Shown: positions 1,780 to 19,815 of the stretch, piece by piece
Layout: each line of letters starts with the position of its first letter
How positions within the stretch are numbered: the stretch's first letter is position 1
Source of the DNA: a virus
IMG/VR virus record: IMGVR_UViG_3300005526_000006
Coordinates: 1 to 42,521 of that record
Reading direction: 5' to 3' (one strand)
Length of the DNA stretch: 42,521 nucleotides
Program-made: the position numbers and the translations under genes
The notes under the pieces: model-generated
The model's input: the letters and a program-made list of their open reading frames with translations, nothing else
Databases searched by the model: none
What the model was told of the DNA's origin: nothing

Positions 1780-2184
1780 ATGAAAAGATTCATCGTCTTT
1801 TGCGGAGCCCTGGTGCTTTTGGTTGCGGCCGTATTCCTTTCCAAGTCAGACGCGACCAGCTTTCCGACCGGGATGCGCGCCGACACTATAAACTCAACAA
1901 TCCTCACCGCATCCGGGACCACAACCACGAACAAGGTCGGAACCGGACTCTATGTCGAAGGCGTATTGAATCACAGTTTCCAATGCGTAAACTCCGGGGC
2001 GGCTGCGCAGCAATTCATCATTGATTGGAGCCTGGACAATACGAACTTCGTCCCCATTTCCACAAACGCGGTGGCTGCTACTTCGACGGCGGGGATTACC
2101 TCAATCGGCAAATACGCTTACGTGCGCGCGCGGCAGCTTGGGACAAATGACGCAATGGCCGTGATTTATCTCGGGGGGAATTAG
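1780..2184 (+). CDS. Secreted beta-rich protein of unknown function
   Basis: The 134-residue product starts with a classic Sec signal peptide: MKR, a hydrophobic stretch of about 17 residues, then a plausible cleavage site at SDA/TS near residue 26. The mature part is short, Ser/Thr/Asn-rich and probably all beta. A secreted protein between the capsid cement and connector genes is odd. It may be a late-expressed envelope or surface protein, or a decoration protein with an exported form. The gene begins 10 bp after the terminator and abuts the next gene. I do not recognise a family. Confidence 0.75.
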   Translation: MKRFIVFCGALVLLVAAVFLSKSDATSFPTGMRADTINSTILTASGTTTTNKVGTGLYVEGVLNHSFQCVNSGAAAQQFIIDWSLDNTNFVPISTNAVAATSTAGITSIGKYAYVRARQLGTNDAMAVIYLGGN

Positions 2185-6506: not shown

Positions 6507-7300
6507 TGGCAGGTCGCAAAATCATCATCAACGGCTCACTTGGACCAGTCGGCAGGCCCGCAAGCGTCGATTCCGATCCGGTGCGCGGGCTTGTCGTTAA
6601 TGAATCATTTCATGGGGCGGGGTTGCAAAGCCTTGCGGGTAAAGCTGCGGCTTATATGGCGCACGGGGTTGCATTCAGTTGGCACCTAAGCCCAGTCGTC
6701 TCAACAATTCAAGCAACGTATTCAGGAGGACAACTGGGTATGCCGGATGACGCGGCAATTAATTGGCAACTGCTCGGCAACGATGTCCAGGAGTCGATTT
6801 TCAAGAATCCTTTCGTGCTGCAAAACTGCAACGACTTTCCGACGCTATCGGATGATGTCAGGCAATGGCGTTCGCTATGGGACCAGGGCGATACAGATGG
6901 GGCTAACGCTTTTATAAATACTGCGATTGCGGCTGTCCCGGGAGAAGAAGGCGCGCTCCGTGCAATAATCCAGATGATTAAAAACGGCGAGACGCACTTC
7001 GGCGTGGCCGGTTACGTCCTTAAGCGCACGCATTCAATCTCAAATTTCTTCAGCGGAACAATCCCCGGCGATGCAGCCGCGGAAAAGTTGCTGACCACTG
7101 CGACTATACTTGGATTCGGATTGCCGGGGCCGCTGATTGCCAAGATTGGCAGCATCGCCGCACCGCCGTTCAGCGCGCCATACGATTGGACCTGGAGGCA
7201 ATTACCATCGCAACTTGTCACGAGCGCCAGAAATCGCGTTGAAGTCTCAACCGAATGGCAGCTCGGACTCTGGAACACGAACCTTTACGCCTACGCCTAA
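6506..7300 (+). CDS. Tail-tip protein (putative distal tail component)
   Basis: The 264-residue product starts at ATG 6506, overlapping the tape measure TGA by one base (TGATG); the longer open frame upstream lies inside the tape measure gene. It contains no recognisable enzymatic motif. It has GIN/GSLGPVG turns at the N-terminus, a helical centre and a C-terminus rich in Trp/Tyr (YDWTWRQLPSQ, EWQLGLWNTNLYAYA). Genes directly after the tape measure usually encode distal tail or hub proteins, which is the basis for the call. Confidence 0.5.
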   Translation: MAGRKIIINGSLGPVGRPASVDSDPVRGLVVNESFHGAGLQSLAGKAAAYMAHGVAFSWHLSPVVSTIQATYSGGQLGMPDDAAINWQLLGNDVQESIFKNPFVLQNCNDFPTLSDDVRQWRSLWDQGDTDGANAFINTAIAAVPGEEGALRAIIQMIKNGETHFGVAGYVLKRTHSISNFFSGTIPGDAAAEKLLTTATILGFGLPGPLIAKIGSIAAPPFSAPYDWTWRQLPSQLVTSARNRVEVSTEWQLGLWNTNLYAYA

Positions 7301-7897
7301 ATGTCCATACAAGCACCCAAGCGTCCCGACGGTTCTAACCCTGAGGCGCTTTACGCACAGTTCTCGCATGAGTCCATTTCGCACGTTCTGAGATTGCAAA
7401 GGGTGGCGGGGACTGGGATGCGGAACACCACGCAAGGGCTTGCGGTCATCCCCGACCAAACTTCGATGGCATCTGGCGCAGTCGTTAAAATGTATCTGCT
7501 GCGCGATGTCAAAGGCGATTACCTGGTTGCGCATTCATGGGACGGAGATACCGAGGGAACGCAGGATATTTACATCGCAAAGGAACCCGAACACCGCGAA
7601 AGCGTCACCGATGAAACAATCCTTGGGGTTGACCATACCTTCACATACTCCGATGGGCCAAGTGAGGACTGGGACGTTGAAACCGCGGCGCGATTCAATC
7701 GTGTGCGCCACGATAACGACGGAAGCACGACCGAGGACCAGCGCATCGTCCCGCCCTGGAAAGATGGCCTGGTTATTCATGCCATAACGGCGAGGACGGA
7801 CGCCACTCGGCCGACATCCGATGACGATGACACGCCTATAAAGATAGGGCTTCTGATTATCGGCCGTTCCTGCCAATGGGCTAAAAAGCGCGGATGA
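7301..7897 (+). CDS. Tail-tip/baseplate-type protein of unknown function
   Basis: The 198-residue product starts immediately after the previous stop and overlaps the next gene by ATGA. It looks largely beta, with VVKMYLLRDVKGDYLVAHSW around residues 61-80, a charged linker of DDD residues near position 177, and a hydrophobic C-terminus. Its place in a coupled run after the tape measure suggests a tail-tip subunit; no family is recognised. Confidence 0.6.
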   Translation: MSIQAPKRPDGSNPEALYAQFSHESISHVLRLQRVAGTGMRNTTQGLAVIPDQTSMASGAVVKMYLLRDVKGDYLVAHSWDGDTEGTQDIYIAKEPEHRESVTDETILGVDHTFTYSDGPSEDWDVETAARFNRVRHDNDGSTTEDQRIVPPWKDGLVIHAITARTDATRPTSDDDDTPIKIGLLIIGRSCQWAKKRG

Positions 7898-8625
7898 GCC
7901 ACGTCCTTTCATCGGAGAGTGCGCACCATTGCGGAACGGAAAGCACCCATCATGTTTTATCGGGTGCTGGCACAATCAATTTAAGCACGGACAAATCTTC
8001 AATTCTCGTTGGCGAAAAGTTCCAATTCATCGTCACCTCCACGGATTTAGAAACCCCAAGTGTCGCCATTGATGAAATATTCCCTGGCGTTAGGCTGAGC
8101 GTTGCGACCGTCTCACTCGATGGGGTGGGCGCTGGTTCGGTCGCGTACGTCTCTGGAATTTTGCCAGCAAACCCGGCCCTGATCTCTAGCTTGGACATCG
8201 GCCCAGACTTCCAATTCATTGGACATTCCCCAGGCGCCGACGATTCCAATGTGGTTCATATGGTCATCACAGACCCCGGGCTCTTTCATTGCGACGGGGG
8301 TTTTATTTCCTGGGTAAATGCAGCCGCTGGAATCTCTGCGACTGGGACATTGACCGGCTCCGCGGCATTTCTAAGCGGTGGGCTCGGGGTGACATCGGCG
8401 GGATACACCGACACCGGATCAAGCCTGCTGGTATGGCAAGTGCCAAGGGATTCATTCGGCGTTTGGCACGACACCTCGGGGGCCTGGCAGATGGATGGGC
8501 TTGGACTTCTTTACGTGAAGCACGACGACAGCTATGGCATCCACTGCCCGCGCGGGCTTTATGATAAGACCGGCGATCTCGGATTCTACCCGGGCGCGCC
8601 GGCCACGCTTACGCTTTTGCCATAA
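7894..8625 (+). CDS. Tail-tip protein with Ig-like features (putative)
   Basis: The 243-residue product is coupled to the previous gene by ATGA at 7894. The segment GAGTINLSTDKSSILVGEKF (residues 25-44) followed by alternating strands resembles an Ig-like fold. The C-terminal third has short Gly/Asp turns and aromatic residues (GVWHDTSGAWQMDGLG). The N-terminus has several His and Cys residues that could bind a metal. It is probably part of the tail tip or a fibre attachment protein. This is inferred from position. Confidence 0.55.
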   Translation: MSHVLSSESAHHCGTESTHHVLSGAGTINLSTDKSSILVGEKFQFIVTSTDLETPSVAIDEIFPGVRLSVATVSLDGVGAGSVAYVSGILPANPALISSLDIGPDFQFIGHSPGADDSNVVHMVITDPGLFHCDGGFISWVNAAAGISATGTLTGSAAFLSGGLGVTSAGYTDTGSSLLVWQVPRDSFGVWHDTSGAWQMDGLGLLYVKHDDSYGIHCPRGLYDKTGDLGFYPGAPATLTLLP

Positions 8626-8656
8626 CCAAAGGTTGACAAGACGCCAATGGAGGACA

Positions 8657-9271
8657 ATGGCCCAGTTAGATTTCTATTTCGACGTTGACCGACGGCAACG
8701 TGTCAGGAGTTCATCCGACTCCTCGATTGTGGCAATGCCGCCGTTTGCCCTTGGAGATACTTACGCGATACGGATTCACCCCCTCCAGCCGACAGGTCAA
8801 ACCATTGGAACCATTTACGCGCCGATTTTAACGGCTGGAAAGACTATCGAGTTTGCCGTCGGTAATCTTGGCGGCGGCGGCGGCGGGCCTTACGCGAGTC
8901 AATACGTGTGGACTGGGAATGACGCCAACGCAAGCGACCCGTTTTTCTATGCCGACGTTTCGTTTAACACGACCGAAATGACGACGTTGCTGACGAATGA
9001 GGAGACAGCTAGGAAATACCTTCAAATCATCCTCAACGACGGCACTCCCAAAACCATCTTCCAAGACCAGGTCACACTCACGAGCGCGGTCATCATTGGA
9101 ACGCCGCCCTCTGCAACACCCGGGCAAACGTGGGCCACAATGGAAACTGTTCGCGCCTTGCTGCAAAACATCACGACAAAGAGCGTGACGATTGAAAGCC
9201 CGGATGGCACGCACAGCCGACGCTTGTCAGAAGAAAACGACGGAACGCCATTGGATACGCAGTCCCCATGA
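8657..9271 (+). CDS. Upper tail-fibre/baseplate protein (putative)
   Basis: The 204-residue product starts at ATG 8657, preceded by GGAGG and, 24 bases upstream, by TTGACA. An open frame extending back to 8534 overlaps the previous gene and is ignored. The N-terminal 60 residues resemble the fibre-anchoring domains of tail proteins (MAQLDFYFDVDRR, then GDTYAIRIHPLQP). A Gly-run hinge (GGGGGG) occurs near residue 76. Its end overlaps the start of the first signal-peptide gene by ATGA, so a cytosolic tail protein is directly coupled to an exported one. Confidence 0.55.
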   Translation: MAQLDFYFDVDRRQRVRSSSDSSIVAMPPFALGDTYAIRIHPLQPTGQTIGTIYAPILTAGKTIEFAVGNLGGGGGGPYASQYVWTGNDANASDPFFYADVSFNTTEMTTLLTNEETARKYLQIILNDGTPKTIFQDQVTLTSAVIIGTPPSATPGQTWATMETVRALLQNITTKSVTIESPDGTHSRRLSEENDGTPLDTQSP

Positions 9272-10260
9272 ACCGATTAGCCATCATCCTGTTTTTTGTT
9301 TGCTTCGGCGCATTGGCCGCCTCAGTCCCGGTGAACGTCCGTTACGATTTCTCGGACTTCACGCTCAACGCTCAAGGCGTGCGGCGAATCAACATCACGC
9401 CGATAAATGCGCCAATGGTTTATACCAACATCATCTCTGGGGACCGGCTCAGTTTCACCAACAATTCAAGCGGCGCGCTGATAGTCACAAACCTTGTAGC
9501 GCCTGGAAGCTATGAGGTGGATTTCGTCGGCAGATTTCAAACGCTGAGTTTCACAAACACTTTCCCGGAAACAAATGCGGGCGTGACGCTGAACGCGAAG
9601 GATTTCATCTCGGCGCCCACGAACACGCCAACTGGGGCGGTCGCTTATTCGATGGCTTCGGCTGATGCGCGGTTTGCCCCAATTTCGGGAGGCCCGCAGG
9701 TATGGACCAATGACGGAGCTCTAATCAAATTATCATCGGACGCAAACGTTCCCCCTGCCGTATTAGTTGATACCAATTCCAGCAAAATCGAGATCAATGC
9801 CGCCGATGCCAGTTCATCTTCGTTCTTTTACGCCCGCACGAGGGATTCTGGTTCTGGGTTTCAAGCCTCAACCACGGACAGCATAAACGGAAATACATTC
9901 GTTTCGACGCACTATACCTATACGACGGGCACCAATGGCGTTATGGCGTTTGCGCAGTATGAAGGCTCGTCTCTATTTACCCTGCTTGACCCCGCCCAGG
10001 ACAACGGGGATGCCCCCTATGTTTTCGACACCATTTCACCGGCGACGCACGGAGCGGTCCTGGCGGATTTTCGGCTGGGCAGAGCTTCTAAAATAACCTT
10101 TGGCACAAATGGGAATATCACACTCGCTGGAACCACCAACCAGATTATTTTTGGCGGGACGAACACCGCCCCGGTGGGTTCCGCAACGACTCCGACAAAA
10201 TGGATCTCCGTTCGAGTCCAAGGCGAATCCACCGTCTACCGACTACCGCTTTACCAGTAA
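9268..10260 (+). CDS. Tail-fibre-like protein with a Sec signal peptide
   Basis: The 330-residue product begins with MNRLAIILFFVCFGALAAS, a signal peptide with an AXA site near residue 18. The mature part is rich in Asn, Thr, Ser and Gly and has fibre hallmarks: AYSMASADARFAP (about residues 126-138) and a C-terminal KWISVRVQGESTVYRLPLYQ, like the tip of trimeric phage fibres. A virion fibre should not be exported, so this is either a surface-displayed protein or a fibre with an unusual route. It is coupled to the previous gene by ATGA. Confidence 0.75.
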   Translation: MNRLAIILFFVCFGALAASVPVNVRYDFSDFTLNAQGVRRINITPINAPMVYTNIISGDRLSFTNNSSGALIVTNLVAPGSYEVDFVGRFQTLSFTNTFPETNAGVTLNAKDFISAPTNTPTGAVAYSMASADARFAPISGGPQVWTNDGALIKLSSDANVPPAVLVDTNSSKIEINAADASSSSFFYARTRDSGSGFQASTTDSINGNTFVSTHYTYTTGTNGVMAFAQYEGSSLFTLLDPAQDNGDAPYVFDTISPATHGAVLADFRLGRASKITFGTNGNITLAGTTNQIIFGGTNTAPVGSATTPTKWISVRVQGESTVYRLPLYQ

Positions 10261-10271
10261 CAGAATCATTT

Positions 10272-11003
10272 ATGAACAAATCCAAAATGCTTTTTCTTGC
10301 AGCCCTTTCCATCGCGCTTCTTGCCCGGGCCGAAGATATAAACCGCACCTTGAGATTCCGCAGTGGGGGCGCAATTACGATGGACACGACCGCCAGCATT
10401 GCGGACGAGGACGGAAATTGGACGCTTAGCAGCTCCACGCTGAAGTCTCTGGCAGGCCAAAGCGCAACGACCTTCAGCGGAGGCGTCACCGATACAAACT
10501 CGACCACCGGCAGCTATACGCTGATTCGGGCTGGCTGGTTCGTTGCAAGTAACGCGGTAACCGGAAGCTTTCTCTATTACACAAACGGTTCTCTGCTTAT
10601 TAGCAACGCCGTCACCGGGAAATATTTGCTTTCAACCAACGGCACGGTCACGGCTACCGGAACGACTAACTTCCTTTCTGGCAACTTGCAAATCGGCGGC
10701 ACCTATTACGGAAACGCAAGCCAGCAGACCAATAATGTCAGCACGCAGGCGGCCAATTACCCCATAACCATCGCTGACAGCTACATCCTGTTATCTGCAG
10801 CCCATAGCGCCACGCTACCAACGGCAGTCGGCATACCCGGAAAGGTTTTCACAATCCTTTGCACTGGCAACGGAACAAACGCGATTTTAACCACCAGCGC
10901 ACAGACAATCAACGGCGCGACCTCATGGACGAACACGGCGCAATATAAATTTACCAGCGTGGTTTCTGATAATGCGAACTGGTGGGTTACAGGCCAGAAC
11001 TAA
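10272..11003 (+). CDS. Secreted fibre/spike-type protein with a phage C-terminal knob domain
   Basis: The 243-residue product starts at ATG 10272 with MNKSKMLFLAALSIALLARA and a cleavage site at ARA/E. The middle has short repeats of NAVTGxx and TNG. The last 75 residues (PITIADSYILLSAAHSATLP through the final YKFTSVVSDNANWWVTGQN) match a C-terminal domain common in phage tail spikes. The signal peptide plus a classic spike tip is the unusual combination. It follows the previous stop by 11 bp. Confidence 0.75.
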   Translation: MNKSKMLFLAALSIALLARAEDINRTLRFRSGGAITMDTTASIADEDGNWTLSSSTLKSLAGQSATTFSGGVTDTNSTTGSYTLIRAGWFVASNAVTGSFLYYTNGSLLISNAVTGKYLLSTNGTVTATGTTNFLSGNLQIGGTYYGNASQQTNNVSTQAANYPITIADSYILLSAAHSATLPTAVGIPGKVFTILCTGNGTNAILTTSAQTINGATSWTNTAQYKFTSVVSDNANWWVTGQN

Positions 11004-12317
11004 ATGAGGCGACTACTCTCAATCCTGATTCTCTGTCTCGCCTGCCTTTCGGCGGGCGCATCGACATTCATCACGGCAACGGTTGCTCTGACTAACACGA
11101 TTTGGGGAACGTCCAATTACAACACCCTTACGGTGAACGGCAATACGCGCCACTTCACAAACCAAGTTGCGGACGCATCGACTCAGATTCTCACCAACAC
11201 AACGCAATCTGGAAGCGCGGCGAATCTCCTAAACCAGATTGCCACGTTTCCATTCTCCGGTGTCGGCCTGGGTCAAACCGCGGCAACGAATGTCGTTTTG
11301 AAATCGGCGGCGGATACCGCCCTAACGGTTTCCGTGTCCTCCGGGTGGGCCACCGTGGCCTACGTCACGAATAGCTTTGGGACAAATATCTCAGTCGTTG
11401 TTCCGGACGTTTATACGCCACAGCAAAAAACTAACGTCTATAGCGGTTTGATGGCCGACATCAACTCCGACGCTGACACAAATAGGCTCGCGGTTAGCAA
11501 GCTGCCGGCAAATATCGGCAGCACCAACCCGGTTTTCCACGGATCGGCGACTGTGACCAACGACGGCTCCGGGAGCGCGGTGGTAATCACCGGCAGCAAT
11601 GTGACGGCGCAGTCATTCACCGCGACCGGCACCGGAACAAATCTCATCGGCCTCTCGCGCATTACCAACGTTGCCGGGGGCCATTTCCTTTTCCAGCCGA
11701 CGGGTGGGCCTATTACCAACAATGACGACGCCTCGGTCTTTACCAATCTTCCTCTGGTCACGAGCTTCGATGTTCCAGCCTCTGAGTTGTTCTCAAACAA
11801 TATCGGGGACGGCGCGACTCTTAGTTTCGGCGCTTTCGGGTGTATTACCAACGTCGGCCAAGGCGCGATCTTGTGGCACACGAACGGGACATCGGCGGTG
11901 ACCAATACCGTCAGGTTTAGGAAGTCGTTGCCATGGGATTGGGACGGCGGAACCGTGAAGGTCGGCATCGTCTCTGTGTGCTCCGGGACCAACTCAGTCT
12001 TGGCGACCAATCTGGTTTACGCTGCGAGGGCCGCGGCGATACCGTTTGGAACAGGGCTAACAACCCCGACATTCGGAAGCCTTGCCAGAGTCACCAACAA
12101 CGTCGCCATAGGTGCCTGGACAAACGGCGTTGAGGGAATTACGGCCGCCTTGACCGTCGGCGGTTCACCGTCAGCAACAAATGGAATCCTTTGGGAAATC
12201 CAACGGCATGGTGGCGACGGTGGGGATACAGAGACGAATTACGACGCCTTCATTTTGCGGCTGCGGGTTTACTACAAGTCCAACACTCGAACCAATTTCC
12301 CCGCGTCCAGCCCATGA
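11004..12317 (+). CDS. Secreted fibre-like protein, Asn/Thr-rich
   Basis: The 437-residue product begins with MRRLLSILILCLACLSAGA, cut probably at AGA/S. The mature chain is rich in Thr, Asn, Gly and Val with TNG/TNN turns, as in beta-helical or trimeric fibres; residues 170-220 include the fibre-like GTGTNLIGLS motif. It directly follows the previous stop and is coupled to the LamG gene by ATGA at 12314. Likely role: host-surface binding, either on the virion or displayed on lysogens. Confidence 0.7.
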   Translation: MRRLLSILILCLACLSAGASTFITATVALTNTIWGTSNYNTLTVNGNTRHFTNQVADASTQILTNTTQSGSAANLLNQIATFPFSGVGLGQTAATNVVLKSAADTALTVSVSSGWATVAYVTNSFGTNISVVVPDVYTPQQKTNVYSGLMADINSDADTNRLAVSKLPANIGSTNPVFHGSATVTNDGSGSAVVITGSNVTAQSFTATGTGTNLIGLSRITNVAGGHFLFQPTGGPITNNDDASVFTNLPLVTSFDVPASELFSNNIGDGATLSFGAFGCITNVGQGAILWHTNGTSAVTNTVRFRKSLPWDWDGGTVKVGIVSVCSGTNSVLATNLVYAARAAAIPFGTGLTTPTFGSLARVTNNVAIGAWTNGVEGITAALTVGGSPSATNGILWEIQRHGGDGGDTETNYDAFILRLRVYYKSNTRTNFPASSP

Positions 12318-13114
12318 GGATTCTGCTCGCACTCATCGTCTCGGCGCTATCGCTGCACGCTCAGAGCATTTTCACTTCCGGTGTTTTTTCTTCCGTCATC
12401 ACCCCCGGCGGCCCTGCAGCCGGTGGCGGCGGCGCTCCTGGCGACGGCTACGAGTCCAGCCTGTTCGCTTATTATGCCTGCGAGGATTCAGGTAACACCG
12501 GCCTGCACGACTCAACCGCGGGGGCTCGCAATTGGAGCCTTTACTCTGGCAGCCAAACCGGAGCCGACGCTACTGGAAAAATCGGCCAAGGATACACCTT
12601 TGGCCTTGGAAGTCCGACGCTGGACTTCCGCTATGGATCATCAACGGCTTTCAATTTTTCTCCCGGTCACAGCTTCACGCTGCGATTTTGGATAAAGACC
12701 AGTGCGACCGGAGCCAATGACAACCTGATTGGCCCAGCCGGACCGTGGGAAGTGCTTTTTGGAAGTCCACCCAGCGGAGGGGACAGCAAGATTGATTTCC
12801 AACTGAACGGCGCGAGTTTGAGCTTCGACCTGGTGAGCACCGCGATTGGCGATGGCAACTGGCATGAAATCTTTTGCTGGTTCGACCTTGGCAGCGGCGT
12901 GGCCGGTATTCAGGTGGACAATAATTCTCCAACAACACAATCGAGCGTCGATATGTATGACCCGGGCAGTGGTCAATTTTTTGATTTCAACGGGACTCCC
13001 GGAACCTTGCTCACACTTGACGAGATTGCGTTTTGGGATAATTACGTGCTCACCTCCGGTGACCGGACATTCGACTGGAATGGCGGCGATGGAGAGGGAT
13101 TCCCCCTGCCATGA
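12314..13114 (+). CDS. Secreted LamG/concanavalin-like lectin protein
   Basis: The 266-residue product starts at ATG 12314 (ATGA overlap), not at the longer upstream frame. MRILLALIVSALSLHA is the signal peptide. A Gly-rich linker (GGGGAPGDG) leads to a LamG-like jelly roll from about residue 47: LFAYYACEDSGN, FTLRFWIKT near residue 120, and GNWHEIFCWFD near 183, ending with LTLDEIAFWDN. Such domains bind carbohydrates, so it probably binds cell-surface or matrix glycans. It is part of the coupled signal-peptide run. Confidence 0.75.
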   Translation: MRILLALIVSALSLHAQSIFTSGVFSSVITPGGPAAGGGGAPGDGYESSLFAYYACEDSGNTGLHDSTAGARNWSLYSGSQTGADATGKIGQGYTFGLGSPTLDFRYGSSTAFNFSPGHSFTLRFWIKTSATGANDNLIGPAGPWEVLFGSPPSGGDSKIDFQLNGASLSFDLVSTAIGDGNWHEIFCWFDLGSGVAGIQVDNNSPTTQSSVDMYDPGSGQFFDFNGTPGTLLTLDEIAFWDNYVLTSGDRTFDWNGGDGEGFPLP

Positions 13115-13368
13115 AAACCGCCGCACTCCTCATCTTATCCGGCATCGTGATGGACCTTGGCGCATCCAATCCGATAACCGTTACGCTTGACCAGCCGCCC
13201 GACGGCAGCGTTATTTCAAACACCGTCACTCTGTCAGCAACTCCGTTTAGCAGCGCGGCTCCGATTGTGCGCGTCGAATACTACTTGGACGGGACGAACT
13301 TAATCGCCACGGCTACCAATCCGATTCCACCGCCTCAAAGTTTGAATCTAACCGTAATATCACAATGA
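13111..13368 (+). CDS. Small secreted Ig-like domain protein
   Basis: The 85-residue product has a short signal peptide (MKTAALLILSGIVMDLGA/S) and a single bacterial Ig-like domain: ITVTLDQPPDGSVISNTVTL followed by VRVEYYLDGTNLIATATNP. Such domains usually occur in large secreted Verrucomicrobiota proteins; here one stands alone. It is joined by ATGA overlaps at both ends (13111 and 13365). It could be a separable module of a surface assembly with its neighbours. Confidence 0.7.
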   Translation: MKTAALLILSGIVMDLGASNPITVTLDQPPDGSVISNTVTLSATPFSSAAPIVRVEYYLDGTNLIATATNPIPPPQSLNLTVISQ

Positions 13369-13877
13369 AAACAAAACTGACCCTCCTATCCCTTATCTGC
13401 TTCGCACTCAATCTGGCCGGCGCACAGCAATTCCTTTTCCCTAGCAATTCCCCACCCGTTATTCAACTCGCGTGGAATCCAAGCCCGTCGCCAAACATCA
13501 CGAATTATTCGATTTACACCGGAGTCGGCCCGCGGCAATACACGAACCGTCTGGCCTTTGGAACATCAACCGGCGCCACAATAACACTACCGGCCCGCGG
13601 GGTGACTTTCTACTTCACCGTTACGGCGTGGGCCAGTGGACAGGAAAGCGATTTCTCGAACGAGGTTTCATTCACGCCCGCCAGTGTTCCAAGCGCGCCG
13701 ACGATGAAGCCGCTTGTCGTCCTAACGGTTCAGAAATCAGTATCCGGCCAAGGCACATTTGCTGATACCCAGATGACCTACAGCGATGACCCGGGCGGGC
13801 CTGAAGCATTTTACCGGCTGAAGGTGGACCGTGGGTTTGCGCTGACACTTACTCCGCCACCGATGCCGCACAAATAA
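13365..13877 (+). CDS. Secreted fibronectin type III domain protein
   Basis: The 170-residue product has a signal peptide (MKTKLTLLSLICFALNLAGA/Q) and one FN3 domain from about residue 30: IQLAWNPSPSPNITNYSIY, then VTFYFTVTAWASGQESDFSN, which strongly resembles FN3 domains of secreted Verrucomicrobiota proteins. The C-terminal 50 residues are unassigned. It is the last of six consecutive genes with signal peptides and overlaps the Ig-like gene by ATGA. Confidence 0.75.
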   Translation: MKTKLTLLSLICFALNLAGAQQFLFPSNSPPVIQLAWNPSPSPNITNYSIYTGVGPRQYTNRLAFGTSTGATITLPARGVTFYFTVTAWASGQESDFSNEVSFTPASVPSAPTMKPLVVLTVQKSVSGQGTFADTQMTYSDDPGGPEAFYRLKVDRGFALTLTPPPMPHK

Positions 13878-13890
13878 TGTTCATTCTCTT

Positions 13891-13953
13891 ATGCTCATAG
13901 TGGCGCTGATATTGGTTGATAATCTGTTCGCCATCTTCATCGAGGGAAAATGA
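13891..13953 (+). CDS. Possible 20-residue hydrophobic peptide
   Basis: ATG at 13891 opens a 20-codon frame encoding MLIVALILVDNLFAIFIEGK. It is strongly hydrophobic and ends with an ATGA overlap on the next gene, the same arrangement used throughout this operon. It may be a small membrane peptide or only a translational coupling leader. Size and lack of a Shine-Dalgarno keep confidence low. Confidence 0.35.
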   Translation: MLIVALILVDNLFAIFIEGK

Positions 13954-14243
13954 AGCCTGCGACAAAAGTTGCGTCCCGCTGCCCTTTTTGCGACGGAGCG
14001 AAACACCCCTGGCACATGAAGTGCCGCAAGTGTTACTCTCGGATTCGCAAGCGCATTCAAAGCAACCTTCAGAGCGCCTGCCTCATGTATTGGGCAATGG
14101 GCTTCACTGCGCGGGAAATAGCCCCGCGGTTAAAACTTTCCCCGAAAAGAATCCAGCAGGGGATCACCGAAGGTCAAGCCCGCCTAAGAATCTGGGGCCA
14201 AGCCAACATCACGCGCTGGGCGCTGAAAACCGGATTGATTTAA
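13950..14243 (+). CDS. Zinc-ribbon/LuxR-type HTH DNA-binding protein
   Basis: The 97-residue product has a small zinc ribbon at the N-terminus (CPFCDG at residues 11-16, CRKC near 25-28) and then a GerE/LuxR-type helix-turn-helix. The segment MGFTAREIAPRLKLSPKRIQ matches the recognition region, and the end (ITRWALKTGLI) matches the usual A-x-x-x-GLI terminus of NarL/LuxR regulators. It lies three bases before a stand-alone receiver domain, so the two may form a split response regulator. Likely role: transcription control of late or lysis genes. Confidence 0.7.
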   Translation: MKPATKVASRCPFCDGAKHPWHMKCRKCYSRIRKRIQSNLQSACLMYWAMGFTAREIAPRLKLSPKRIQQGITEGQARLRIWGQANITRWALKTGLI

Positions 14244-14246
14244 GCA

Positions 14247-14675
14247 ATGGCCGACACTGAATATTTCGATTACCGGAAAGCGGTGGAGAACATCGAGGGC
14301 ACCATTCGTGCGCTCCAACCGCCAAAGACGCTCCTCCTGGTGGACGATGACTCGGCTGACATTTTACTCACCTTGAAAATCCTCAACCTTTTCAACGTGA
14401 AAGTAACCGTCGCCCATAGTGGCGAAGAGGCAAGGGATACGATTCAGAACAAGAATTTTGATTTGGTTTTATTCGACCTGGTTATGCCGGGATTGGATGG
14501 GCTTGAATTTGCGTTAGGGGCGGCGGGCCTTATGCCCGGTGCAAGATTCATTTTAGTCACTGGCTATCCGTTGAGTCCCAAAGTGGAAGCGGTCCTGAGA
14601 CTGGGGGCGGTGATGTTGGCCAAACCTTTGACTCGTCAAAGTCTCGAACTGATCCTTCCACTTAAACCGCGATGA
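14247..14675 (+). CDS. CheY-like response regulator receiver domain
   Basis: The 142-residue protein is a single receiver domain with all key residues: the acidic cluster D33-D35, phosphoacceptor D77 (LFDLVMPGLDG), T105 in ILVTGYP and K126 in LAKPL. It has a roughly 25-residue N-terminal extension and no output domain. Receivers are phosphorylated by histidine kinases; none is encoded here, so a host kinase would be the donor. Neighbours are the LuxR-type HTH gene (3 bp upstream) and a membrane coiled-coil gene coupled by ATGA. This is unusual in a phage late region. Confidence 0.9.
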   Translation: MADTEYFDYRKAVENIEGTIRALQPPKTLLLVDDDSADILLTLKILNLFNVKVTVAHSGEEARDTIQNKNFDLVLFDLVMPGLDGLEFALGAAGLMPGARFILVTGYPLSPKVEAVLRLGAVMLAKPLTRQSLELILPLKPR

Positions 14676-15554: not shown

Positions 15555-16043
15555 ATGAAACAAGCACTCGCACTATTAACACTCACCGCCCTGCTCGCCG
15601 CCGGCTGCGCGTTCAAGAAAAACACCGAAGTCACCGGCAACCCCGGCCACGGCTACACCACGAACACCACTTGGACCGTGAATACCAACATCCTGGCGCT
15701 AGATTGCGCGGCGGCGCAGGTAGCAACAGCCATCGCGGTAAACACCACCATTAACGCAACGCACAATGACGCGGGCGTAATATCAGCGCTGAAGAATGCA
15801 CAGGTCGCACTTGGCGGCATACTCAACGGGACCAATCCGCAGACCACGCAGACCGTCATTGAATTGCTGAAGGCTCAAGGCAATCCCGCGCTGACCCAAC
15901 AGGTAACGATGCTTATCGAGTCGCTGAGTGCGGCAGAGCAACAGCTATTGATGAAGTATGGCGCGAGCACTGGAGGCCAAGTCGCTATTGCGATGACGCA
16001 GGCGGTTTACTCTGGGCTGACGGTGGGATTGTCGGGGCATTAA
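15555..16043 (+). CDS. Lipoprotein of unknown function (o-spanin candidate)
   Basis: The 162-residue product starts with MKQALALLTLTALLAAGC, a signal peptide ending in the lipobox LAAGC, so C18 is probably lipid-modified. The mature part is Thr/Asn/Ala/Gln-rich and mostly helical, with an amphipathic segment QTTQTVIELLKAQGNPAL. Its position after the holin candidates fits a role at the outer membrane at lysis, but it is longer than classic o-spanins. It immediately precedes a second lipoprotein. Confidence 0.65.
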   Translation: MKQALALLTLTALLAAGCAFKKNTEVTGNPGHGYTTNTTWTVNTNILALDCAAAQVATAIAVNTTINATHNDAGVISALKNAQVALGGILNGTNPQTTQTVIELLKAQGNPALTQQVTMLIESLSAAEQQLLMKYGASTGGQVAIAMTQAVYSGLTVGLSGH

Positions 16044-16418
16044 ATGGAATCCAATTGGAATCTAATCGGATTCTGTTTGGCATGCCTGGTCCTATGCGGC
16101 TGCGCCGTGCCCCATCGCGCCGCAATCACAACCCGCGAGCTGCGCACCTACCAAGGCCGCGATGATGGCCTGTTAGCGATTGAAACATGGACCGACACTG
16201 AAAAGGGCGGCGGGTGGTTTCTGCTCACGACGAGTGACGTTCAATCCCTCTCCGCGATTCACACTAACCAGAATGCGCTCGGAGGCGGCAGCGTTTTTAA
16301 CGCTGGTCCGATTAGGATCAAAGTGGACCAGGCAACGGGACAAATCATCGAGGCCAGCGGGAGTGCCGTTGGGAATATAGTGGGCGAGGCGCTGAGGAAG
16401 GCGGTCGGTGTTCCTTAA
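16044..16418 (+). CDS. Second lipoprotein of unknown function
   Basis: The 124-residue product begins with MESNWNLIGFCLACLVLCGC; LVLCGC is a lipobox with the modified Cys at residue 20. The rest is a small mixed fold with GWFLLTTSDVQSLS near residue 57. It abuts the first lipoprotein. Two lipoproteins in one lysis region may mean one outer-membrane spanin plus one exclusion or surface protein, but neither is recognised by motif. Confidence 0.65.
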   Translation: MESNWNLIGFCLACLVLCGCAVPHRAAITTRELRTYQGRDDGLLAIETWTDTEKGGGWFLLTTSDVQSLSAIHTNQNALGGGSVFNAGPIRIKVDQATGQIIEASGSAVGNIVGEALRKAVGVP

Positions 16419-18173: not shown

Positions 18174-19313
18174 TTGTCAAGAAAATGTGCAGCGGATTGC
18201 AGCGGATGCGTGAAAGTCTCCCGCGCTCACTATCACGGCCTTACCCGATGGCGGGTGACGTGGCGTTCTGGCGGGAAAACCGTTCGCCGGTTCTTTAAGA
18301 CGCTCCGAGCTGCCAATAAGTTCGCAAAGAACATCGCCGGGGAGATTGCCAAATACGGGGAGGAATGGTCCGGCCTGCCAGCCCGGGACCGCGCTGAAAT
18401 CATAGATTGTTGGCGGCGGGCGCGGGAACGCGGCTATTCAATCGCTGAAGCCTTGAGGTTTTGGGAAACGCACGGCGCAAAGTCGGCAAGCGGGACAACG
18501 GTATCCGACCTGGCCACCAAGTTCCTTGAGGCGAAGCGTGCGAAGGGACTCAGGCCCGAAAGCCTCCGCTTGCTCGAGACAACCATGGACCAATTCAAGG
18601 TCGGACGCGAGAACTCCAAGGCCAGCGACGTTTCAACCGAGGATGTAACCGCATTCCTTTCTGAGCGGTCCTGGGGACCGTGGCGCCGACGCGGGGTGAT
18701 TATCGACTTGGGTAATATGTTCAACTGGGGGATTCGCGCTGGTCTGCTTATCCGCAATCCCGTTGCGCCAATCGAACGCCCCACAATCGAACACAAAACA
18801 CCCCGGGTTCTATCCGTGGAGGATTGCAAGCGCCTGCTAAAGCTCTGCCGCAACGAACATCCGAAGCTTTTGGCGTGGCTCGTTATAAGCCTATTCGCCG
18901 GATTGCGGGCGGCCGAGGTGGAACGATTGACCTGGGGTGACGTTAAGGAATCGCACATTGCGCTCGCCTCGCACCAAACCAAGGGCCGCGCGCGTCGGCT
19001 GGTTAAAATCCGCCCAGTCCTTGAGGGCTGGCTCACACTTTGCCGGAAGTCCGATGGCTCCGTTTGTCCGGGCGACCACCATAAGCGGGCAAACGCGCTG
19101 CGTGCTGAATTTGGGAACTGGCCAAAGAATGTTTTGCGCCATTCTTTCATCTCGTATGCGCTCGGAGTTGGCGAACCAATCAAAGACGTGGCGATGGAAT
19201 CGGGCAATAGCGAGGAGATTATCTTTCGGCACTACAGGGAGATTGTGACGCAAGAGCAGGCGAAGGAGTTTTTGGGGCTTACGCCGTCGGTCATGGGAGC
19301 GTCGGAAGCTTGA
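18174..19313 (+). CDS. int: Tyrosine recombinase (integrase)
   Basis: The 379-residue protein integrates the phage into the host chromosome. It has an N-terminal arm-binding region, a SAM-like core-binding domain (about residues 108-200) and a C-terminal catalytic domain. Catalytic residues visible are R245 (FAGLRAAEVE), K270 (HQTKG), R322/H323 (NVLRHSF) and nucleophile Y354. The usual first His of H-x-x-R is N319, as in integrases I associate with Verrucomicrobiota/Planctomycetes, and the usual GH is GN345. Start TTG 18174, or GTG 18210, which would leave the TGCAGCG repeat outside the gene. Confidence 0.93.
   Translation: MSRKCAADCSGCVKVSRAHYHGLTRWRVTWRSGGKTVRRFFKTLRAANKFAKNIAGEIAKYGEEWSGLPARDRAEIIDCWRRARERGYSIAEALRFWETHGAKSASGTTVSDLATKFLEAKRAKGLRPESLRLLETTMDQFKVGRENSKASDVSTEDVTAFLSERSWGPWRRRGVIIDLGNMFNWGIRAGLLIRNPVAPIERPTIEHKTPRVLSVEDCKRLLKLCRNEHPKLLAWLVISLFAGLRAAEVERLTWGDVKESHIALASHQTKGRARRLVKIRPVLEGWLTLCRKSDGSVCPGDHHKRANALRAEFGNWPKNVLRHSFISYALGVGEPIKDVAMESGNSEEIIFRHYREIVTQEQAKEFLGLTPSVMGASEA
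18182..18194 (+). repeat. 13-bp direct repeat AAAATGTGCAGCG, right copy
   Basis: Second copy of the 13-mer at 17950, overlapping the first codons of the integrase frame if TTG 18174 is used. It is followed by TTGCAGCGG and ATGCG boxes as at the left copy. Confidence 0.5.
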
Positions 19314-19815
19314 TTGAAACTGTGACGGAGTTCGTTCCCTGAGCTATCCGCGTGCGATTCGGCATCTGCTTCAAGGAATCGAACACCGCACCGATGTTGG
19401 TTCGGTCGCAGCCTGAAACGCAATAGATGATTGTCCCGGACCTGCGATTGGTCTCGACGGCAACATTTAAGTCGCCGAGGTCCTTTAGGTAAAGCTCTGA
19501 CACCTTCGCCGGACTCGGCACGGTGTTGGTCGACCGCTCAAGCCACTCGGCATGCCTCATCCTGGCGCCGAATTGTCCAGCTTCGGCTTTGATCTCTTGC
19601 TGTCTGGACTTCTCAGCATCGGTTGTGGCCTTATTGCTTTCTGAAACCCTCGCTTGTTCTGCTTTGTCCTTTTCTGCTTGTTCTGCGGCTGATTTCTTTT
19701 GCAGGTCCCACATGTCTTTGTTCCACTGACTGGGGCTTTTTGGATTCCTATAGGTCTGCGCTGACCCAAGACAAACACCAACAACCAGGAACATTATTTG
19801 CGTTTTAATATTCAC
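19291..19815 (-). CDS. Secreted Lys/Glu/Gln-rich protein, lysogeny-conversion candidate
   Basis: The 174-residue minus-strand product has a signal peptide (MNIKTQIMFLVVGVCLGSA/Q). The mature part has a long charged helix (residues 34-75) and then a small alpha/beta domain (VAVETNRRSGTIIYCVSGC near residues 118-136) with a pair of Cys. GTG at 19815 is preceded by GGAGGG. It is transcribed towards the integrase and overlaps its 3' end by 23 bp. Genes here are often expressed from the prophage, so a role in the host envelope is possible. Confidence 0.7.
   Translation of the reverse strand: MNIKTQIMFLVVGVCLGSAQTYRNPKSPSQWNKDMWDLQKKSAAEQAEKDKAEQARVSESNKATTDAEKSRQQEIKAEAGQFGARMRHAEWLERSTNTVPSPAKVSELYLKDLGDLNVAVETNRRSGTIIYCVSGCDRTNIGAVFDSLKQMPNRTRIAQGTNSVTVSIKLPTLP

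Follow-up and report, generated by a model that had tools for sequence, protein, structure and literature searches.

The virus record IMGVR_UViG_3300005526_000006, analysed here over its full length of 42,521 bases (the window), carries six consecutive genes (9268-13877) that each begin like a Sec-exported protein, preceded by a cytosolic gene for a putative tail-tip adaptor. In textbook accounts of tailed-phage assembly all virion parts, fibres included, are built in the cytoplasm, and receptor-binding proteins that carry export signals within a conserved module would mean either that this rule is broken or that there is a widespread class of phage-encoded exported fibres. A 30-base repeat stands at both ends of the record, which is therefore probably a complete, circularly closed sequence. 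The phage is temperate, and an integrase, large terminase (TerL), portal, protease and capsid protein are all encoded in the window. Its best relatives in the INPHARED database appear to indicate the Verrucomicrobiota: the capsid protein is 34% identical to that of Akkermansia phage Chantilly, and Verrucomicrobia phage P8625 gives a terminase match spanning most of the protein. One relative sits on a contig of a Verrucomicrobia metagenome-assembled genome (MAG).

The array of predicted exported proteins in the window

Signal peptides (SPs) were called with a heuristic predictor that weighs charge, an uncharged core and a small-x-small site, on genes called by a simple script; the predictor accepts membrane anchors too and made some false calls in a test on E. 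coli. It flags 10 of the 77 called genes of the window, among them all six of the array, and a run of six such genes appeared in 11 of 200,000 shuffles. In each of the six, a basic n-region leads into an uncharged hydrophobic core, which a small-x-Ala site follows (Table 1). These are complete Sec signal peptides and bear out the original prediction, made from the letters of the DNA, of six consecutive genes with such starts; the open reading frames are likewise as it described them. The idea that these starts are an artefact of start-codon choice was rejected, as homologues of 25-35% identity retain the segments as signal peptides and the starts are coupled to the gene before. The ATGA overlaps that had been said to link most of the genes to one another and to the cytosolic gene before them are present at four of the six starts (9268, 12314, 13111 and 13365), whereas 11004 abuts its neighbour (TAA followed directly by ATG) and 10272 comes after an 11-base gap; the cytosolic gene itself starts at 8657 and not, as first given, at 8534.

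Residues 19-135 of the 9268 protein correspond to the domain that follows the signal peptide in the tailspike L015:16786 (36% over 121 residues), and it is only through this shared domain that 9268 joins a fibre or spike family; library searches placed none of the other members of the window array in one. The 10272 protein matches phrog_37034, of unknown function (E 1.4e-7), the 13111 protein matches Big_7 (PF17957, E 1.4e-7), and the 13365 protein, which had no match in the library searches, looks fibronectin-III-like by eye. The LamG domain of the original prediction is recovered in 12314 as a match to PF13385 (E 3.5e-5) that lies under the Pfam cut-off (24.4 against 27.6 bits). The mature 11004 protein is predicted to start STFITATVALTN.

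Table 1. Genes with predicted export signals in the tail and head modules of the window, with the adaptor gene
Feature	Position	Strand	Residues	Predicted SP	Predicted cleavage	Remarks
Putative exported protein, head module	1780..2184	+	134	flagged		behind capsid gene and 1311-1715 gene
Putative stand-alone cytosolic tail-tip/fibre adaptor	8657..9271	+	204	none		ATGA-coupled to first gene of array
Putative exported fibre-like protein, family B	9268..10260	+	330	about 1-17, flagged	ALA^ASV	
Putative exported fibre-like protein	10272..11003	+	243	about 1-20, flagged	ARA^EDI	
Putative exported protein, family A	11004..12317	+	437	about 1-19, flagged	AGA^STF	lead family
Putative exported LamG-type lectin-like protein	12314..13114	+	266	about 1-16, flagged	LHA^QSI	
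Putative short exported Ig-like protein	13111..13368	+	85	about 1-18, flagged	LGA^SNP	
Putative exported beta-rich protein	13365..13877	+	170	about 1-20, flagged	AGA^QQF	

Relatives and prophages

Direct scans with the window fibres or with gene 6506 gave no close relatives. The protease and the conserved tail gene 4597, used as anchors, led to about a dozen related uncultured phages, many of them on contigs that stop within the fibre module. The G001 region is syntenic with that of the window and holds an adaptor, five SP-like genes (three flagged, two recognised by eye) and a lipoprotein; the product of the first SP-like gene is 30% identical to that of 11004, with the leader retained. Members of family A come from the window itself, a further seven phage records and a single MAG contig, with a signal peptide in all nine; a search of 387 other Verrucomicrobiota genomes found none. 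Homologues lacking the hydrophobic segment, which would speak against export, were looked for, and every member of this lead family retains it.

A search with an adaptor profile matched 10 of 388 Verrucomicrobiota genomes. In G093, G146, G343, G231, G190 and G323 the adaptor is followed by one to three SP genes, and several of these six cases are integrated prophages. The G093 array lies on a 3.76-Mb contig; those of G343 and G231 lie on contigs of 133 and 202 kb, each adjoined by a gene that reads as an integrase. A viral scan with the G343/G231 fibre gave no matches. The G093 contig (C1) holds two copies of the adaptor-fibre region, near 3726981 and 3761844, and in the second the fibre is called in pieces (a broken frame).

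Several proteins of these arrays have recognisable fibre or spike domains. The 701-residue fibre of G093 has repeats like those of fibre shafts, a domain of the GDSL esterase type and, at its C-terminus, a match to the tail protein phrog_17312 (8e-10). SP-bearing L015:16786 is a pectate-lyase-type tailspike, with matches to tail-spike PHROGs (5e-12 and 9e-11) and to PF12708, a second SP-bearing beta-helix protein with PF12708 is the 946-residue protein of G001, and SP-bearing L020:16499 is a fibre of the virion structural family phrog_16122 (3e-10). Lectin-like proteins are also found among the export-tagged members. The claim that fibre-type proteins carry export signals is thus supported well beyond the window, in relatives and prophages alike. 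Phages UTEC10, BcepMigl, Frankenweenie and Ibantik encode related spikes without a signal peptide; since the spike domains of phages from other hosts lack it and the lead family keeps it, the signal peptide belongs to this phage group and not to the domain.

These findings bear on a very improbable alternative, that the genes are cargo (morons) recently captured from host genes for secreted proteins, located in the tail region by chance and with signal peptides that are mere leftovers. LamG, Big_7 and possible fibronectin-III domains, as in 12314, 13111 and 13365, are indeed common in bacterial secreted proteins. However, the same arrangement recurs in divergent phages and prophages, family A has been seen only on phage-type contigs and carries the signal peptide throughout, and spike or fibre PHROG domains occur on several members, so this rival is already weakened.

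Evolution of the signal peptides

Across the tail modules 32 of 35 proteins are flagged by the heuristic, and the remaining three (L027:15444 and two in G001, with a polar residue in the core or a weak n-region) look like SP proteins by eye. The same predictor flags 13 of 341 genes in seven control phage genomes, namely spanins, lipoproteins, small membrane or unknown proteins, lambda Lom and one false call (lambda Z); none of the annotated fibres or spikes in those genomes is flagged. The authors of the P8625 genome found no signal peptide in any of its proteins with SignalP (PMC4642752), and the target proteins of phage diversity-generating retroelements, some of them tail fibres, were reported without signal peptides (PMC6199706). 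No published case of signal peptides on tailed-phage fibres was found in the open-licence full texts searched.

The array genes lie at the end of the tail operon and pair a conserved N-terminus with a variable C-terminus, as in tail fibres and spikes. Within family A, identity is 0.20 over the signal peptide, 0.35 over the next 60 residues and down to 0.09 at the C-terminus, a profile with the usual shape of a virion-anchored fibre; in family B a single post-signal domain is joined to quite different C-terminal parts. The signal peptide seems to evolve as a cleaved leader would, drifting while the adjoining domain is the most conserved. Identity between L013 and L014 is 35% over the signal peptide against 67% over the next 60 residues, and between the first fibres of G343 and G231 it is 53% against 85%; no such difference is seen in the other two G343/G231 genes.

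It is unlikely, if less so than recent capture, that the hydrophobic N-terminus is retained and serves at the tail tip as a handle for membrane seeking or for assembly, for instance by inserting into the host membrane or packing against the adaptor. The predictor's acceptance of membrane anchors leaves room for this, as do the few unflagged members described above. That said, a docking handle should be conserved in sequence, whereas in L013/L014 and in the first fibre of G343/G231 the segment drifts and yet stays a tripartite signal peptide. Moreover, separate proteins with unrelated bodies all carry the segment, and [AV]xA motifs occur in 23 of the 35 N-termini, against 16.9 expected from shuffled ones (P about 0.02), a modest signal.

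The adaptor and the genes behind it

The adaptor gene at 8657 is kept at the same position in the relatives, and its product has no Pfam or PDB sequence match. An AlphaFold2 (AF2) model of the protein (mean predicted local distance difference test, pLDDT, 73) has the tail-tip proteins of T5/DT57C as its best Foldseek matches (7qg9_J, E 1.4e-4), together with phage tail, fibre and BppU N-terminal-domain proteins (BppU at 8e-4 to 2e-3 in BFVD), at moderate TM-scores. The modelled fold thus appears to resemble those of tail-tip and BppU-type proteins.

A stand-alone adaptor is followed by one to six SP genes in 14 of 15 cases, counted once per genome. The viral cases are the window, G001, L013, L014, L025, L026, L027 and L028, and those in Verrucomicrobiota genomes are the six named above, with G140 as the exception. 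Among the viral contigs with a stand-alone adaptor, all that extend far enough have an SP gene directly behind the adaptor or behind one intervening gene of 78-98 residues. An adaptor fused to a long shaft has no SP gene next to it in the isolated phage P8625 or in G126, G039 and G036, the exception being L020 with its near-copies. The contrast, 14/15 against 1/5, has a Fisher P of 0.005, the true weight of which is smaller because G343/G231 and L013/L014 are close pairs. In L033 (G012), at 6776-7498, a second adaptor paralogue is followed by another exported-looking protein, which suggests that adaptor-fibre modules have been duplicated in this one phage.

A possible route of fibre assembly

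The reading we favour, tentatively and somewhat short of an even chance, is that in a group of Verrucomicrobiota phages the fibres leave the cytoplasm, reach their mature form in the periplasm and attach to the tail adaptors when the cell lyses; export, cleavage, periplasmic folding, docking and virion membership are what we infer here. Fibres and spikes with Sec signal peptides would be made late in infection, co-expressed with the tail, pass through SecYEG, be cut by signal peptidase I and fold in the periplasm. Heads and tails would meanwhile assemble in the cytoplasm, the tails ending in the short BppU-like adaptor. Once lysis proteins open the envelope, mature fibres would meet tails and dock on the adaptor via the conserved domain behind the cleavage site. 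The C-termini of the six window proteins show no known motif for outer-membrane sorting, so that soluble mature proteins would be expected to remain periplasmic until lysis.

The strongest rival, which we consider rather unlikely, is that the proteins are exported and never enter the virion, acting instead as fibre-like adhesins, lectins or polysaccharide-cutting enzymes in the periplasm, in the medium or on the cell surface. Just as doubtfully, they might serve late in infection in receptor masking (superinfection exclusion), as decoys, in holding debris or in opening the surrounding matrix. Secreted proteins are a usual setting for LamG, Ig-like, GDSL-esterase and pectate-lyase-type domains, and the predictor also caught lambda's exported Lom, which comes from the tail-fibre region. 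On the other side, the genes are locked in a late tail operon behind an adaptor, usually one without a shaft of its own, the lead family was not found in the 387 other Verrucomicrobiota genomes searched, and neither a lipobox nor a known surface-sorting signal was noticed in the six window proteins. A simple consensus scan found no forward promoter-like site within 8500-14300. The late tail coupling, this lack of a promoter-like site and the pairing with shaftless adaptors are the reasons for tentatively favouring the virion over a role outside it.

Several points weigh against docking on the virion. L014 has a cytosolic LamG-looking tail protein upstream of its adaptor and L020 a complete cytosolic fused fibre beside the exported one, so that these phages may possess other receptor-binding proteins, and a role outside the virion is still alive because such cytosolic fibres or lectins adjoin exported ones. 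Other host secretion systems could move periplasmic proteins out of the cell. A structure prediction for the 11004 protein gave no usable model (pLDDT 39). Finally, the mosaic adhesive trimer (MAT) fibres of Bdellovibrio bacteriovorus, which are displayed on the cell surface, share the same architecture, with a conserved domain right behind the signal peptide (PMC10769870); such a domain therefore does not prove virion docking.

Surface display by lysogens, one of the explanations first offered, looks less likely as the only role, given the late-tail coupling, the lack of a promoter-like site and the fact that G001 carries the same array with no recognised integrase (its completeness is uncertain, the 127-base end repeat lying within a repetitive gene). 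The original interpretation as a whole is partly supported.

Comparison with known systems

Like the proteins described here, MAT fibres resemble phage fibres: their signal peptide leads directly into a conserved beta-rich domain, and their C-terminal tips are diverse (PMC10769870). They differ in being encoded by bacterial genes and shown on the predator cell, whereas the present genes belong to late operons of phages and follow a tail adaptor. Many MAT proteins, one subfamily, end in an S74 chaperone, which was found neither in the window proteins nor in ten relatives scanned; the present proteins may yet belong to the non-S74 subfamily. Sequence searches of the PDB with families A and B returned no usable relative and no MAT match.

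The BppU-type N-terminal adaptor of P8625 appears similar to the adaptor of the window phage and holds the same tail-operon position, with a LamG-type protein nearby; there, however, adaptor and shaft form one cytosolic fibre protein, in a phage for which no signal peptide was reported in any protein (PMC4642752). Sec-exported endolysins with signal peptides, such as Lys44 of phage fOg44, likewise leave through Sec and are cleaved ahead of lysis, to wait on the outer side of the membrane (PMC6116005), but are lytic enzymes rather than receptor-binding proteins.

Lambda Lom is an outer-membrane protein of lysogens. It resembles the array products as an exported phage protein from the tail-fibre region, but is not fibre-like and not part of an array; as for traits of lysogenic conversion of the Lom and Bor kind, the six proteins have no lipobox and their region no forward promoter-like site, as noted above. 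In filamentous phages the virion proteins pIII and pVIII pass through Sec/YidC with a cleaved leader; those virions differ in being extruded, assembled in the membrane without tails or lysis.

The window phage and over a dozen relatives thus have either an undescribed route of fibre assembly or fibre-like proteins that are used outside the virion. Assembly split between cytoplasm and periplasm would, if true, be a route undescribed for tailed phages. For annotation, SP-bearing fibre genes in metagenomes are easily mistaken for host genes. Prophages such as those of G093, G343 and G231 would make the question testable if strains are available.

Head-module genes, Thr-Asn enrichment and neighbouring genes

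A seventh SP gene, not in the original prediction, lies just behind the capsid genes at 1780-2184, and its product matches phrog_16217 weakly (E 0.0013). Small SP genes also occur in the head modules of L019 (5862-6485), L027 (5364-6047), L014 (2258-2716), L028 (3009-3455) and G190 (L106, reverse strand, 1073-1483), in many cases immediately or shortly after the capsid gene, as in L019, L027 and G190. A profile comparison (probability 0.2) did not support the idea that the 1780 family consists of decoration proteins to which a leader was added.

The dipeptide Thr-Asn occurs at threefold its expectation in the exported proteins of the clade (312 against 103.5, in mixed codons), a bias specific to this order of the residues (Asn-Thr only 68) and noted in window genes 9268-12317 and 1780-2184 and in the SP proteins of G001 and L013-L033. 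The LamG protein 12314 is an exception. No enrichment was found in the non-exported proteins of the window and G001 or in the cytosolic fibres tested. A host-secretome origin was rejected, exported proteins of the sampled Verrucomicrobiota standing at 0.93 of expectation. The enrichment is missing from most of the more distant prophages and is therefore a feature of the clade, perhaps a modification site or a structural habit. A classifier that predicted export from composition, with MAG proteins as its training set, performed weakly (area under the curve 0.75), also called cytosolic fibres exported and was dropped. Held a shade more tentatively than docking at lysis itself is a wider version of it, a split host-recognition apparatus in which a cytoplasmic adaptor and Sec-exported fibres are joined at lysis and which may extend to capsid-associated proteins and to periplasmic modification at Thr-Asn.

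Another SP gene, at 19291-19815 on the opposite strand (-), overlaps the 3' end of the integrase gene; its product, with 2.9 Thr-Asn per 100 residues, is possibly an exported protein expressed by the lysogen. On the 3' side of the fibre array, two adjacent genes (15555-16043 and 16044-16418) have lipoprotein signal peptides (LAAGC and VLCGC) and are possibly related to lysis. The late-region gene at 14247-14675 seems, from its sequence, to encode a response-regulator receiver domain on its own (DDD...LVLFDLVMPGLDGLE), which is unusual in a phage.

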